NCBI GenBank assembly: GCA_003045995.1
Contig: PZPG01000004.1
Location: 30,588 to 85,558 of the forward strand
Direction of reading: 5' to 3'
DNA from: Bacteroidota bacterium
GTDB taxonomy: Bacteria; Bacteroidota; Rhodothermia; Balneolales; Balneolaceae
DNA length: 54,971 bases
How positions within the stretch are numbered: the stretch's first letter is position 1; every line of letters begins with the position of its first letter. The position numbers were made by a program, and so were the translations under genes. This document shows positions 23,514-34,407 of the stretch, piece by piece. Under the pieces are notes generated by a model. That model ran no database searches. It saw nothing but the letters and a program-made list of their open reading frames with translations, and was not told the DNA's origin.

Positions 23514-23553
23514 AAAAAAAAAGCGCACCGGCCGTGTTCCGGAGTGCGCTTTT
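23514..23553 (-). terminator. Intrinsic terminator after pnp
   Basis: On the minus strand a GC-rich stem (AAAAGCGCAC paired with GTGCGCTTTT, with an inner CGG/CCG extension) is followed by a run of T. It lies 20 nt beyond the pnp stop codon. Confidence 0.85.
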
Positions 23554-25770: not shown

Positions 25771-25799
25771 AAAAAAAAGGCACGATCGTTTCGTGCCTT
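25771..25799 (-). terminator. Intrinsic terminator between rpsO and pnp
   Basis: On the minus strand AAGGCACGA, loop of 5 nt, TCGTGCCTT, then eight T. It starts 14 nt after the rpsO stop codon. Partial read-through would be needed if pnp depends on the rpsO promoter. Confidence 0.9.
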
Positions 25800-28372: not shown

Positions 28373-31243
28373 CTAGTTAACGTCGCTCAATTTACGTTTC
28401 GATTCCACCATGGTGTAGCTCTCGAACTCATCACCCACCTTGATGTCATTAAAATTCTCGATGCTGATTCCGCACTCATAGCCAGACTGTACTTCCCGGA
28501 CGTCCTCCTTGAATCGTTTTAGTGAATCGATCCTTCCTTCATATATTACAACGCCATCGCGAATTACACGTATCGGGTTGTTTCGAGTCACTTTTCCTTC
28601 GGTTACGTAACAACCGGCAATTGTTCCTACTTTCGACACTTTGAAAATATCCCGTACGGATACCATCGCCTTAATCTCTTCGCTGATTTCCGGACTAAGC
28701 ATGCCTTCCAGAGCATCGTGCACCTCATCTACTGCATCATAGATAACACTAAAGAGGCGCACATCAATACTCTCCGCTTCCGCGAGTTTTCTGGCAGCCG
28801 CAGTCGGCCGTACCTGAAACCCAATAATAATCGCATCCGATGCAGAAGCAAGCAACACATCCGATTCTGTAATTGCACCCGAACCAGTATGAATGATATT
28901 CACCGATACCTCTTCCGATCCCAATTTCTGTAGAGCACCCGACAGAGCCTCAATCGACCCATCCACGTCTGCCTTGATAATGATATTTAGCTCAGAAACT
29001 TCACCAAGAGCCATACGACGCGACAAATCATCCAGAGTCAGATGTTTCACATTCCGAAGAGACTGTTCCCGACGAATCTGCTGCCGCTGTGTGGCAATCT
29101 CTTTGGCTGTTCGCTCATCTTTGGGTACTACAAGCCGATCTCCGGCCTGAGGGGTTTCATCAAACCCGGTCAACTGCAATGGTGTGGAGGGTCCGGCTTG
29201 CTGAATCCGTTGCCCTTTTTCGTTTTCCATCGCCCGAACCCGCCCAAAACAGGAACCTGCTACAAACGGATCCCCCACTTTCAGGGTACCGTTTTGAATG
29301 AGAACATTGGCCACAGTACCCTTGCCCTTATCGATTCTGGATTCCAGAATAATTCCCTGAGCGTTCCGGTTCGGATTGGCTTTCAACTCCAACAATTCTG
29401 CCTCAATCAGAACCTTATCCAGTAGATCCGCAATACCCATTCCTGTATGCGCAGATACTTCTGCTACCTGGGTACTTCCACCATACTCCTCCACAATCAC
29501 ACCATGCTCCGACAATTGCCCTTTAATCCGATCTGGATTCGCCCCCTCCTTATCCATTTTGTTGATCGCGATAATCATAGGCACACCCGCTGCTTTCGCA
29601 TGATTAATTGCCTCAATCGTCTGAGGCATCACCGAATCATCAGCTGCAACCACAAGAATCACTATATCAGTAGCCTGTGCTCCCCGAGATCGCATCGCAG
29701 TAAAAGCCTCGTGACCTGGTGTATCCAAAAACGTAATTCTCTTTCCGTCATCCGTTTCCACCTCATACGCACCTACGTGCTGCGTAATACCCCCTGCTTC
29801 CCCGGCTGCAACCTTTGTTTTCCGAATATAATCCAATAACGACGTTTTCCCGTGATCCACATGACCCATCACCGTTATGATCGGTGAACGAGGTTCAAGA
29901 TCCTCAGGAGCGTCCTCTTCCTCTGCCAAAAGTTCATCCGTTGCCTCATCCGCATCCACGAAATTTACATCGGTATCGTATTCCGCAGCAACCAGTTCTA
30001 TCGCGGATGCATCCAAACGCTGATTAATCGATACCATCATTCCAAGCGTCATACAGGAGGTAATGATGTCTGTCGGACTTACATCCAACAAATCAGCAAG
30101 ATCACTCACAGTAATAAACTCCGTCACATCAATTACATCATTCTCAAGATCTTCCAGCTCCTGCTGAAACTGAAGCTCCTCCTCCCGATCCTCGCGTCTC
30201 TGCTTACGACGCTTTTGACGTTTTTTACCGGCAGCCCCACCCTCCTGAATCTTCAGCAACGTCTCTTTCAGTTTTTTCTCTGCTCCCTCCTCATCCGCTA
30301 CAGACGACTTTCTCTTTTTCGATTTCTTACCGGCTTTTTTGCCTTTTTTGGCATCAGTCGCTGTATCTGTTTTTGTTGAAACCTGTTCCGGTTCCTCCCG
30401 GTCCTTCTTCCTCTTCCGTTTTTTAACCTTCTTCTCTGTCTCAAAGGTTGTTGCAACTTTCCCAACAACTTTGGTTCCCTTCAGCTTTTTAGCCGACCCC
30501 CGAATAATCTCATCCTCCTCTTTTTCATCGGGTTGATGAGGTTCGGAACCGGGCTCTTGAGACTCCTTTTCCTCCGCCAGTTCAGTAATTTGAGCATCTT
30601 CCTTTTTGGAAGTCTCTTCTATTTCCGATGGTTCAGTCCCTTCCGATGGTTCAGTGCCTTCTGATGGCTTAATCGCTTTAGTAGTATCTGAAACTGCTGA
30701 TTTTCCAGTGGGAGTCAATACCTCGGCAGGCTTTGCCTCATCTTGTGCAGTTTCAGCCGGTTTCTGATCGGCAGATAATGGAGCCTCAGGTGTAAGATCC
30801 TCTGGTTCGACAGACGCAGGTTCCTCCGACAAAGGCTCAAGATCGGCAGGCTCCACATCTGCAGGTTCCAACTCTACTGGTTCAAGTTTGGGCTGTTTTG
30901 GTTCTTCCGGTTCCAAATCCACTGGTTCCAAACCTGCGGGCTCAAGCCCCGGCTCGTCCAACGGTTCCAGAAAACTATCAATGGTAACCCGTTCATCCTT
31001 GCCAGCCAACATTTGCGATCGACGAGACTCATATTCTTCCCGGGACTTCTCATGTTCCAGACTTTTTACCCGGTCGTCGCCGTACACATCCAGCAGTACA
31101 GCGTACATCTCCGGTGTAATTTTTGTATTTGGCCGATTCGCGACTTCAAAATCCCGCTCTCCCAGTGTGTCCACAATTGATTGTGTAGAAACATTGAATT
31201 CTGAGGCAACTTTGAAAAGTCTCTTTGGTTTTTCTATCGACAT
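28373..31243 (-). CDS. infB: Translation initiation factor IF-2
   Basis: A GTPase of 956 residues that places initiator tRNA on the 30S subunit. The G domain begins near residue 456: GHVDHGKTS (G1), [16 protein letters not shown] (G3), NKMD (G4) and SAHTGMG (G5), followed by domains II-IV with the C-terminal fMet-tRNA-binding part. An N-terminal IF2_N motif ([18 protein letters not shown]) is followed by about 300 residues of low complexity: many LEP units (residues about 95-150), [16 protein letters not shown] (about 193-208) and a strongly basic Lys/Arg stretch (about 285-355). Such variable linkers are normal for IF-2, but the near-identical short units suggest repeat expansion. Confidence 0.97.
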
Positions 31244-31279: not shown

Positions 31280-32536
31280 CTACTCCTCTTCCTCAAATTC
31301 GTACTCAATCAGATCCATAATTTTTTCCGCGGTTTCGCGGTTGATCCGTTCATTCGTACGACTAATCAGTTCATCCTCCGTGAGTTGCAACACCGCTCGA
31401 GCCGTATCGCATCCAATCTCATGCAGGATTGCAATCACTTCCTCCCCAAAGTCCTCTGCAAACTCGCTTAGATCAATATCATCCTCCTCCTCAACATCCC
31501 TGAAGACATCAATTTCACATTCTGCCAGTTTGGAAGCAAGCCGGATATTCACTCCACCGCGTCCAATCGCCTTGGAAACCTCATCCGCGGGAACCAATAC
31601 ATGTGCTTTTTTCCCATCCTCCGATAGTTCTACTTTCAAAACACTTGCAGGTTGCAGAGCTCGTTTAATAAACTCGATTGGATCTTTCGTGTAGTTAATT
31701 ACATCAATGTTCTCATTTTGAAGTTCCCGTACAACAGAGTGAATCCGGATTCCCTTCATACCTACGCAGGCACCCACCGGATCGACCCTTTCATCGTGGG
31801 AAAGAACCGCTACTTTGGATCGGTCACCGGGTTCCCGTGCGATCTTCACCAGATCAATAATCCCATCAAACACTTCCGGAATCTCATTCTCGAAGAGTCG
31901 CTCCAGGAACATTTCCGATGTACGGGAGATAATGACTGTTGGATTTCCAGCAACCCGCTTTACCTCAACAACCACGGCACGGATGGAATCCCCCTTCCGA
32001 TAACGGTCTTTGTAGATCTGCTCACTTCGAGGTAACAGCAGTTCCACACCATTATGATTCACCAAAATGTCTTTGTTAGGTCGCACTTGATAGACATCCC
32101 CCAGAATGATATCCCCGACCCGGTCCGAATAATCTTCAAAGATGTTATCTTTTTCAATCTCACGGATCCGCTGCGAGAGTGTCTGGCGGGCCATCGTGAC
32201 CGCTCTTCGGCCAAAGTCCGTAATCATGATCTCTTGGGCATACTCATCGTAGAGTTCCAGATCGGGATCCTGCTTTTGAGCCTCCTCCAGTGAGATTTCC
32301 GACACAGGATCGGTAAGTTCTTCTGCAGGTACCACTTCCCGTATGTGCAAAATCTGAATCTCTCCCCGATCTGCATTCAGAATCACTTCAAATGCCTCGT
32401 CTGATTCATATTTTTTACGAATCATAGTGCGAAAAACATCCTCAAGAATGGACAACAAGAGATCTCTATCGATTCCTTTCTCCCTTGCAATCTCGGAAAA
32501 GGACTGAATGATCAGTTTTGATACGTCATTTTGCAT
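31280..32536 (-). CDS. nusA: Transcription termination/antitermination factor NusA
   Basis: An RNA polymerase-associated factor affecting pausing, termination and antitermination. The 418 residues contain the N-terminal polymerase-binding domain, an S1 domain (GDIILGDVYQVRPNKDILVN) and KH modules with DPVGACVGMKGIRIHSVVREL and AIGRGGVNIRLASKL. The C-terminus is one helical repeat plus an acidic tail, shorter than in E. coli but usual outside the gammaproteobacteria. It sits 17 nt after rimP and 36 nt before infB. Confidence 0.96.
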   Translation of the reverse strand: MQNDVSKLIIQSFSEIAREKGIDRDLLLSILEDVFRTMIRKKYESDEAFEVILNADRGEIQILHIREVVPAEELTDPVSEISLEEAQKQDPDLELYDEYAQEIMITDFGRRAVTMARQTLSQRIREIEKDNIFEDYSDRVGDIILGDVYQVRPNKDILVNHNGVELLLPRSEQIYKDRYRKGDSIRAVVVEVKRVAGNPTVIISRTSEMFLERLFENEIPEVFDGIIDLVKIAREPGDRSKVAVLSHDERVDPVGACVGMKGIRIHSVVRELQNENIDVINYTKDPIEFIKRALQPASVLKVELSEDGKKAHVLVPADEVSKAIGRGGVNIRLASKLAECEIDVFRDVEEEDDIDLSEFAEDFGEEVIAILHEIGCDTARAVLQLTEDELISRTNERINRETAEKIMDLIEYEFEEEE

Positions 32537-32553: not shown

Positions 32554-33048
32554 TTACGAATGAAATACAGGAATAATTTTGATCTCCCTGATGTCGGAGA
32601 ACAATATCTTTTTTGTTTCCATGGTACGACCCTTCTTCGAAGTTACAGAGATCAAAACAGCATCCTCTAGAACGTCCGTTAGTTCGCCCTGGTATATCAC
32701 ATCTTTCTCGTTTTCGGTGGTACTAACCCGGCATTGTCTGCCAATATTCTTAGCATATTGTCTTACATCCGTCAGTGGCCGATCCAGACCGGGGGAGGAA
32801 ACATTAAGACGAAACCCTCCATCGATCAAATCCTCCCGATCCAGCCATTCCGATAACTCCCTGCTGATCCGGGAGCACTGCTCGATCGTCACATCCGCAT
32901 ACTCCGAATCTAGAAAAACCCAGAGCTGACCAGGATTGCCCTTCTTGAGCTCAACTCCAACCAGAAAAGGATCCCGTTCCCCCAGATACTCTCTGCAGGC
33001 GGCTTCAATGGTCTGTTCGGTTGTCGTGGATTGCATCATGGGCTGCAT
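32554..33048 (-). CDS. rimP: Ribosome maturation factor RimP
   Basis: A 30S maturation factor of 164 residues with the conserved NVSSPGLDRPLTDVRQYAKNIG segment (SSPGLDRPL core) and a C-terminal Sm-like domain (YQGELTDVLEDAVLI, KKILFSDIREIKII). The open frame extends upstream to a TTG at 33138, across the hairpin described below, but the ATG at 33048 fits the family start. It is the first gene of the rimP-nusA-infB-rbfA-truB-ribF operon. Confidence 0.92.
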   Translation of the reverse strand: MQPMMQSTTTEQTIEAACREYLGERDPFLVGVELKKGNPGQLWVFLDSEYADVTIEQCSRISRELSEWLDREDLIDGGFRLNVSSPGLDRPLTDVRQYAKNIGRQCRVSTTENEKDVIYQGELTDVLEDAVLISVTSKKGRTMETKKILFSDIREIKIIPVFHS

Positions 33049-33076
33049 GAAGGATGTTTCCAAAAATAATACATAC

Positions 33077-33107
33077 AAAAAAAAGTGAGAACCTCCCTGG
33101 CGCTCAC
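33077..33107 (-). terminator. Terminator-like hairpin in the rimP-nusA operon leader
   Basis: On the minus strand GTGAGCGCC, loop AGGGA, GGTTCTCAC, followed by eight T. The stem has one C/T mismatch and one G/T pair. It ends 28 nt before the rimP ATG. No other minus-strand gene ends here (coaE ends about 700 nt upstream), so it may act as a leader attenuator or stop read-through from coaE. Confidence 0.55.
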
Positions 33108-33118
33108 TTCTTAGAATT

Positions 33119-33149
33119 GGAAAATACGCAGAAACCAAGTAAAAACAAA
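33119..33149 (-). promoter_or_regulatory. Candidate promoter of the rimP-nusA-infB operon
   Basis: On the minus strand TTTG (33149-33146), 19 nt spacer, TATTTTCC (33126-33119). This agrees with TTTG-N19-TAnnTTTG except for the last two bases. Transcription would start just before the hairpin at 33107-33085. Confidence 0.35.
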
Positions 33150-33237
33150 CTGTGCGATCCAGTCGAAAGAACCTTCTTCCGTCATCCCGTTGGAAGTAGT
33201 ATCTTCCCTTCGTTCACGAAACTCACACGCTTTTCCT

Positions 33238-33807
33238 ATGAAACTTTTCCGCATACCAGTACACATATCATCGGTCTTAACCGCTTTTTCATCACCCCGA
33301 ACCCTACTCCACTTCGCAAACATTCCTTTTTTTTTCGGGTTGATGGGATTGCTTTTTCTAAGTGGATGCTCGGGTGAGAAGCGCCAGGTACCAACCTTAC
33401 AGCAAGATCCTGTACTTGAGTTTGTGGCGGAAGTGATCTTTTATGATGATGCACAGCAAGAGATTACGCGTATTGACGCTGCTGTTGCGGATGATGATCG
33501 TGAGCGAGCCGCCGGGCTGATGAATGTGCGTTCTATGCAGGATGATCAGGGGATGATCTTTTTGTTTGAGCAGGAGCAACCACGAAGTTTTTGGATGATG
33601 AATACATTTCTTTCGCTGGATATCGTGTATGTGAATGCGGCAATGGAGATTGTGCGGATCCACCGGTACACAACTCCATTTTCACAAGAGGGGATCTTAT
33701 CGGAGAAACCAGCGAAATATGTGGTGGAGGTGAAGGCCGGTTTTACGGTGGTGCATGACATTAATGAGGGAGATTCCATCTCATTTTCGATCAGGGACCA
33801 GGGATAG
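33238..33807 (+). CDS. DUF192 lipoprotein
   Basis: A protein of 189 residues with a hydrophobic segment IPFFFGLMGLLFLSGC ending in a lipobox (LSGC), so probably a membrane-anchored lipoprotein outside the cytoplasm. The rest is a DUF192 domain: RERAAGLMNVRSM, GMIFLFEQEQPRSFWMMNTFLSLDIVYV and VVEVKAGF. The function of the family is unknown. The n-region before the hydrophobic core is unusually long, so the true start may be later. It converges with coaE, with only 3 nt between the stop codons. Confidence 0.8.
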   Translation: MKLFRIPVHISSVLTAFSSPRTLLHFANIPFFFGLMGLLFLSGCSGEKRQVPTLQQDPVLEFVAEVIFYDDAQQEITRIDAAVADDDRERAAGLMNVRSMQDDQGMIFLFEQEQPRSFWMMNTFLSLDIVYVNAAMEIVRIHRYTTPFSQEGILSEKPAKYVVEVKAGFTVVHDINEGDSISFSIRDQG

Positions 33808-33810
33808 CAC

Positions 33811-34407
33811 TTATCCGTTTTGCAACCATCGATCTGCGACGGCTTTCACGGTTTGGGTGAGTTCTTCGAGTGTTCCGTTGTTCTGAATTACGTCATCTGC
33901 CAGATGTGAAAGGGTGCTGAAATCGGGTTGGGCGGCCATTCTCTGTAGAATCTCCTCTTCGGTGGCCTGGTCTCTCTCTTTTACGCGTTGTAGCTTTAGG
34001 GCACGATCGCTCTGGATGATGAGAATTTTATCCAGATGATCCGGACGGCCCCGATTGAGAAGCAACGCTCCCTCTATGACAAAAAAGGGTGGATTTTGTT
34101 TTTCGGCCTCTTTCATAAGGCGGATGGTTTCTTTTTTTACAGCCGGATGGACGATGCTGTTAAGTTCCTCAGCTCTTCCCTTGGTAAAGGCTTCAGTAAT
34201 GAGGTGCTGTTTGTTGAGGTACCCTTCCCGGGTGAACGTTTGCGGGCCAAATATTTTCAAAAGCCGGGTACGAACCTCATCATCCCGAACCATAATCTCT
34301 TTTGCAAGTTTGTCGGCATCGATGACGACTGCGCCTAATGATGCAAAGATAGCCAGTACCGCGGATTTTCCAGCCCCAATCGGTCCGGCAATCCCAACGC
34401 GAATCAA
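33811..34407 (-). CDS. coaE: Dephospho-CoA kinase with TTG start overlapping prfB
   Basis: The last step of coenzyme A synthesis: phosphorylation of the ribose 3'-OH. The 198-residue protein has the P-loop GPIGAGKSA, VIDADKLAKE, SIVHPAV and the lid region QRVKERDQATEEE. The longest open frame extends to 34701, but that part lies inside prfB and is not kinase-like. The likely start is TTG at 34407, overlapping the prfB stop as TTGA, with GGAGG at 34419-34415 at 7 nt spacing. So translation is probably coupled to RF2. Confidence 0.92.
   Translation of the reverse strand: MIRVGIAGPIGAGKSAVLAIFASLGAVVIDADKLAKEIMVRDDEVRTRLLKIFGPQTFTREGYLNKQHLITEAFTKGRAEELNSIVHPAVKKETIRLMKEAEKQNPPFFVIEGALLLNRGRPDHLDKILIIQSDRALKLQRVKERDQATEEEILQRMAAQPDFSTLSHLADDVIQNNGTLEELTQTVKAVADRWLQNG

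Follow-up and report, generated by a model that had tools for sequence, protein, structure and literature searches.

The window, by which we mean the whole 54,971-nt stretch of DNA analysed here, comes from a Balneolaceae genome assembled as 2.37 Mb in 117 contigs and carries a rimP-nusA-infB operon preceded by a hairpin and a run of eight T. This locus raises the question of whether the hairpin controls the operon from its leader and, if so, which product of the operon would be the reader. An earlier note had placed the hairpin and T8 tract between a plausible promoter and rimP and had proposed that they form an attenuator in the operon leader. The arrangement is real, with the hairpin and tract occupying 33109-33077 of the minus strand and a promoter-like box just upstream, and comparison with other genomes supports the proposal by the position of the box before the stem, by a divergent neighbouring gene and by the retention of the leader where rimP is missing. 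From these sequence comparisons we consider it probable that the promoter-proximal intrinsic terminator serves as an attenuator of rimP-nusA-infB, at which NusA would stimulate termination and low NusA would permit readthrough. The features of the locus are collected in Table 1.

Table 1. Features of the rimP-nusA-infB operon and its leader, in window coordinates
Feature	Position	Strand	Detail
rimP	32554..33036	-	Pfam RimP_N 1.1e-15, DUF150_C 9.3e-7
nusA, proposed regulator	31280..32536	-	NusA_N 1.5e-33, KH_5 1.3e-27, S1 4.5e-4
infB (IF2)	28373..31243	-	IF-2 8.6e-41
Interrupted terminator hairpin, AAGTGAG / C / GCC / loop AGGGA / GGT / T / CTCAC	33085..33109	-	fold and conservation in 89/89 family rimP loci
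Hairpin part AA	33109-33108	-	
Hairpin part GTGAG	33107-33103	-	
Hairpin part C	33102	-	unpaired
Hairpin part GCC	33101-33099	-	
Hairpin part AGGGA	33098-33094	-	loop
Hairpin part GGT	33093-33091	-	
Hairpin part T	33090	-	unpaired
Hairpin part CTCAC	33089-33085	-	
T8 tract	33077..33084	-	first two T able to pair with AA 33109-33108
Promoter-like -33 element TTTG	33146..33149	-	part of the best -33/-7 match within 75 nt before the stem; spacer 19
Promoter-like -7 element TATTTTCC	33119..33126	-	consensus TAnnTTTG; best-match position in family loci
Predicted transcription start, ~33114	33112..33116	-	inferred from the position of the box in Flavobacterium

Read along the minus strand from 33149 to 33077, the leader consists of TTTG, 19 bases of spacer, TATTTTCC, nine bases, the hairpin and the T8 tract. 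The rimP start at 33036 is set by alignment with relatives, with ATG codons at 33039 or 33048 as alternatives, and the T8 tract lies 28, 37 or 40 nt from these candidate ATGs (13-95 nt across 89 family loci). The operon itself encodes a NusA with RNA-binding domains, composed of the N-terminal domain, S1 and KH, the S1 match falling just below the Pfam cut-off. The RNA of the hairpin folds at -15 kcal/mol (z -2.77), which 4 of 200 shuffles equal. The opposite strand also folds (-11.8) but carries no T-run after the stem, and thus the terminator is unidirectional. The earlier note had further described the mismatched stem as that of a weak terminator dependent on NusA. This description holds for the interruption, as none of the 89 family loci pairs the spot above the lower stem, yet the lower stem is intact, the T8 tract is perfect and the U-tracts of the family run uninterrupted for at least seven bases. 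Indeed, the perfect U-tract and the -15 kcal/mol fold may permit termination without NusA. The hairpin is one of seven elements found when both strands of the window were scanned for a dG <= -9 and at least seven T of eight. It is absent from the output of a simple terminator scan, presumably because the mismatch lengthens the loop beyond the rule of that scan, which between 26000 and 45000 returned terminators in no excess (13 found, 16.7 expected). Elsewhere on the minus strand, terminator-like hairpins with T-runs stand at 25777-25799, between rpsO-like and pnp-like genes, and at 23519-23553, past the pnp-like one; the genes were named by eye from their translations.

The promoter-like elements were scored against the -33 TTTG and -7 TAnnTTTG consensus given for B. 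fragilis in PMC7366714, which adds that in F. johnsoniae no -33 part was found. A score of at least 9 of 11 is reached by all 89 family loci but also by 38% of shuffles, and therefore the promoter argument rests on position and not on score. The distance from the end of the best match to the stem is 7-12 nt in 82 of the 89 loci, compared with a distance within 5-14 nt in 16% of shuffles; these shuffles, like those used for the rimP-less family below, preserve base composition only. In the window, the second half of the -7 box is poor relative to the consensus. When the box is taken to lie at -12 to -5, the position reported for F. psychrophilum (PMC9723704), transcription would start near 33114, and the RNA up to the end of the T8 tract would measure ~38 nt.

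Of the 89 family loci, 6 could not be classified by their closest long upstream frame; in the other 83, this frame is divergent in 78 and on the same strand in 5. We accordingly rejected the reading in which the hairpin ends the transcript of an upstream gene, on what is a crude longest-open-frame test. Together, the box before the stem in 82/89 loci and the divergent frame in 78/83 indicate that the hairpin is a leader element and not the 3' end of a neighbour. In the window, a DUF192 gene on the plus strand and coaE on the minus strand converge, with 3 bases between their ends (33807-33811).

The conserved hairpin that the earlier note had suggested seeking in relatives is present upstream of all 89 family rimP loci, nearly letter for letter. 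These loci correspond to the 89 of 92 family genomes with a match in the RimP protein search, the 88 relatives being 35-50% identical to the RimP of the window. The T-run measures 8 in 75 loci, 7 in 12 and 9 in 2. The 5' arm reads GTGAG in 81/89 and GTGGG in 8/89, and the 3' arm reads CTCAC in 59, CTCGC in 22 and CCCGC in 8, such that a change in one arm is matched by the other or kept as G-U. Across the 79 distinct sequences, 95.9% of 790 stem cells are paired, a fraction that none of 500 shuffles attains, and sliding the pairing partner lowers it to 36-58%. Pair 10-27 changes from A-U to G-C in 8 of the 79 sequences, and pair 13-24 occurs among them as G-U, G-C, A-U and C-G. Covariation is modest, with two pairs altered on both sides (attained by 7/500 shuffles), and the number of pair types does not exceed that of shuffles, 304/500 of which attain it. 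The position between the stems places C opposite U, A or C, with U replacing the C in two cases, and makes no standard pair in any of the 79 distinct sequences; in 2 of the 89 loci, both from one genus, the fold turns this mismatch into a bulge. Overall, the stem letters are near-invariant over 21 genera. The loop is a GNRA tetraloop in 62/89 loci, though not in the window. The three family genomes that lack a match to the hairpin model also lack a RimP match; in two of them NusA_N is not matched either, while the third has just a fragment of it at the end of a contig, and thus assembly gaps are the likely explanation.

The hairpin is also specific to this site. In its own genome the covariance model finds one strong copy, at 51.1 bits, with the next match at 17.2 bits, and the possibility of a repeated element or regulon was rejected on this basis. 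In the order, 100 of 128 genomes match, namely 89/92 within the family and 11/36 outside it, and the three model matches that were read from two other families of this order each lie directly before a RimP-like frame. In a phylum draw, 50 of 394 genomes match at E <= 0.01, of which 45 belong to the family, 3 to the order and 2 are distant and near the threshold. Comparable hairpins precede 11 of 222 other gene starts at dG <= -9 and 34 of 222 at dG <= -6, in a control covering the loci of 53 relatives, up to 8 kb each; the 39/39 rimP starts of this control and the 53 rimP-type hairpins of the hairpin scan were selected by pattern and are not independent counts. The presence of the hairpin in 89/89 family rimP loci, compared with 11/222 other gene starts, excludes chance. 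The second match of the model in one relative, G018, is a terminator with full pairing, placed just past a gene end, and a second copy in another, G038, accompanies a second rimP-nusA copy on another contig. Weak model matches in G222 and G290 were aligned as well. Other terminators of relatives comprise 4 with continuous and 3 with interrupted stems, in seven cases only. Searches led us to reject a tRNA or a known RNA family as the identity of the hairpin.

How the leader might act follows from this layout as a model. Transcription would begin no more than a few bases from the hairpin, the RNA would fold into this interrupted structure upon leaving RNA polymerase and, at the U8 tract, a fraction of polymerases would release the short RNA. 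NusA would promote folding of the hairpin, such that high NusA would yield more termination and less rimP-nusA-infB mRNA, while at low NusA polymerase would read through. As the predicted start leaves no upstream room for an aptamer, an antiterminator or a leader peptide, the terminator itself would be the sensor. We infer the exact start, the partial termination and the NusA dependence in this organism.

A family without rimP bears directly on which product is served. One of 148 genomes of another phylum draw has no RimP match and carries a GGGC..GCCC terminator directly before nusA. In its family, f40 (G186 and 53 others), RimP_N is matched in 1/54 genomes and NusA_N in 47/54. The sole RimP_N match (L305, contig C71 of G476) sits apart from nusA on a small contig and, judged by eye, is probably a foreign contaminant of the assembly. 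The family thus appears to have lost rimP. Among the 47 f40 nusA loci (L256, L259-L304), 42 contain a GGGC...GCC(C) stem with a T-run within 230 nt before nusA; the GGGC...GCC pattern occurs elsewhere in f40 loci twice in 227,340 strand-bases and in none of 2350 shuffled 230-nt stretches. Of the remaining five loci, two are cut by contig ends and three fail the pattern: L264 has a hairpin with a displaced T-run, L295 has, by eye and fold, a hairpin with another stem before its T-run, and L271, alone among the 45 uncut loci, has no such hairpin before nusA. In the 31 f40 loci checked, one of them cut at 97 nt, no RimP-sized frame adjoins nusA, and the single frame exceeding 88 aa stops before the hairpin. 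The one f40 locus that was read further has an IF2-like frame after nusA. That the terminator leader persists at nusA fits an attenuator directed at nusA, and its persistence without RimP argues against RimP as the target or the reader. The family is thus a natural experiment against RimP as reader, and it leaves NusA and IF2 unseparated as the product served. We found no report of such a rimP-less case in the open-access literature searched.

Four other accounts of the hairpin were weighed against NusA-responsive attenuation. A fixed, unregulated promoter-proximal terminator that merely reduces operon output would fit the finding that the sequence bears no sign of regulation, and a hairpin of -15 kcal/mol followed by U8 could act unaided. 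Such a terminator needs just a stem, however, while here the letters are near-invariant and the unpaired spot never pairs. Moreover, the 3' terminator of G018, of the same shape, is fully paired at -18.4 kcal/mol, though this is a single case; three rimP hairpins trimmed to its length fold at -10.4 to -11.8 kcal/mol. We therefore judge a fixed terminator improbable. It is somewhat less probable still that the attenuator is the same but is read by RimP, IF2 or another product of the operon in place of NusA. Any RNA-binding operon product might recognise a conserved hairpin, and Naville and Gautheret, who favour NusA, also mention RimP as possible (PMC2965389). Against RimP stand the leader kept before nusA in 42/47 f40 loci and the near-absence of RimP from that family. 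IF2 or another product may be the reader; the autoregulation published for B. subtilis is that of NusA (PMC12288461).

The hairpin could also insulate the operon against antisense or coaE readthrough RNA, in which case the rimP promoter would lie after the hairpin, at TATTTTTG (33068-33061). The converging coaE and DUF192 genes and the presence of TATTTTTG in the window are what this account has in its favour. Between the hairpin and the start, however, a TAnnTTTG box is found in only 2/89 family loci, one of them the window, compared with the promoter-like box right before the stem in 82/89. A rimP promoter downstream of the hairpin was thus rejected as a general rule, and insulation is very unlikely. 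Finally, the predicted start would place the hairpin at the 5' end of the mRNA, where it might guard against decay without terminating. Protection of this kind does not need a T-run, whereas at least seven T directly follow the stem in 89/89 loci, as terminators require, and we give this account hardly any credence. A bolder form of the preferred reading, NusA-stimulated attenuation, takes the hairpin as an element that NusA binds by its specific sequence. Its unpaired C and its fixed GTGAG/CTCAC arms would be read by the S1-KH domains of NusA, each Bacteroidota lineage would have its own stem code, and the whole would be a one-part switch at the 5' end, kept with nusA after the loss of rimP. 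We regard this form as doubtful.

Leaders of rimP elsewhere in the phylum carry other stems. From the 128 non-family genomes with a RimP match in the draw that led to f40, 64 leaders were sampled, and 60 of these contain a terminator-like hairpin whose stem differs from that of Balneolaceae; the gene-start control set out above comes from Balneolaceae only, and its figure under equally loose criteria is the 34/222 at dG <= -6. The stems are lineage-specific, for example GTGGGG..CCCCAC, AGCCCG..CGGGCT, TCGCCC..GGGCGA and GAGGGGAC..GTCCCCTC, and L182, outside the 64, shows by eye TCGCCC..GGGCGA followed by T5. Of the four leaders that failed our settings, L188 and L198 give hairpins under looser ones, L241 has a hairpin just past the distance limit and the hairpins of L249 are weak. 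In 11 of 14 class-level relatives outside the order, two hairpins lie within 190 nt before the rimP start, although in two of the 11 the first hairpin, over 130 nt distant, is possibly unrelated. Tandem hairpins of this sort were noted in the rimP leaders of L218, L220, L221, L223, L201, L209, L219, L217 and L224, and E. coli is alike.

Among described systems, the closest is the rimP-leader of Naville and Gautheret (2010), which a section heading of that paper titles the most ubiquitous transcription attenuator and for which NusA was favoured as the reader and RimP was not excluded (PMC2965389). The Balneolaceae leader resembles it in belonging to the same operon and in having a terminator hairpin and T-stretch shortly before the first gene. 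The described leader has no visible antiterminator, and here the predicted start would leave no space for one ahead of the stem. The distance from terminator to gene in the window also falls within the 4-130 nt given there. It differs from the GGGc(...)gCCC stem of that description, the window reading GAGc...tCTC and 8/89 family loci reading GTGGG...CCCGC. The main text of PMC2965389 contains no word starting with 'Bacteroid'. The corresponding Rfam model, RF01770 (rimP), has no match in the window at its gathering score of 47 bits and none up to E 10 in 32980-33350; five sub-threshold matches, the best at 24.6 bits, lie on other contigs of the genome. As it fits neither the stem motif of that paper nor the Rfam model, we file the Balneolaceae leader as similar in its working to the rimP-leader but outside its strict membership.

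That NusA autoregulation through leader termination is known in other bacteria, as the earlier note had stated, is borne out for B. subtilis, where a 2025 review citing Mondal 2016 states that NusA is autoregulated by NusA-stimulated leader termination (PMC12288461); PMC6200986 mentions negative feedback that depends on NusA at the ylxS promoter of B. subtilis. The two leaders share an intrinsic terminator, the same operon and, as proposed here, negative feedback by NusA; the predicted ~38 nt contrast with the 180-nt B. subtilis rimP leader (PMC2965389). Closer in phylogeny, transcriptome mapping in F. psychrophilum revealed a structured 5' region of rimP, which other genera of that family also have and which is described as probably an original cis-regulatory element (PMC9723704); it shares with the present leader the gene, the phylum and the lack of an Rfam hit, a likeness drawn from its description. 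In the B. thetaiotaomicron map (PMC7366714), rimP and nusA are not named in the main text. In E. coli (NC_000913), terminator-like hairpins likewise stand between metY and rimP, but as two tandem hairpins (GCCCCGAT..ATCGGGGT and GGGC..GCCC) with a tRNA gene upstream, compared with the one hairpin found here. The mechanism is thus known in kind, and the interrupted GTGAG stem of Balneolaceae is a lineage variant of it. With a promoter-like box, a hairpin and a T-run all inside 73 bp, few conceivable leaders are simpler than that of Balneolaceae, and NusA feedback in Bacteroidota is therefore directly testable with a short template.
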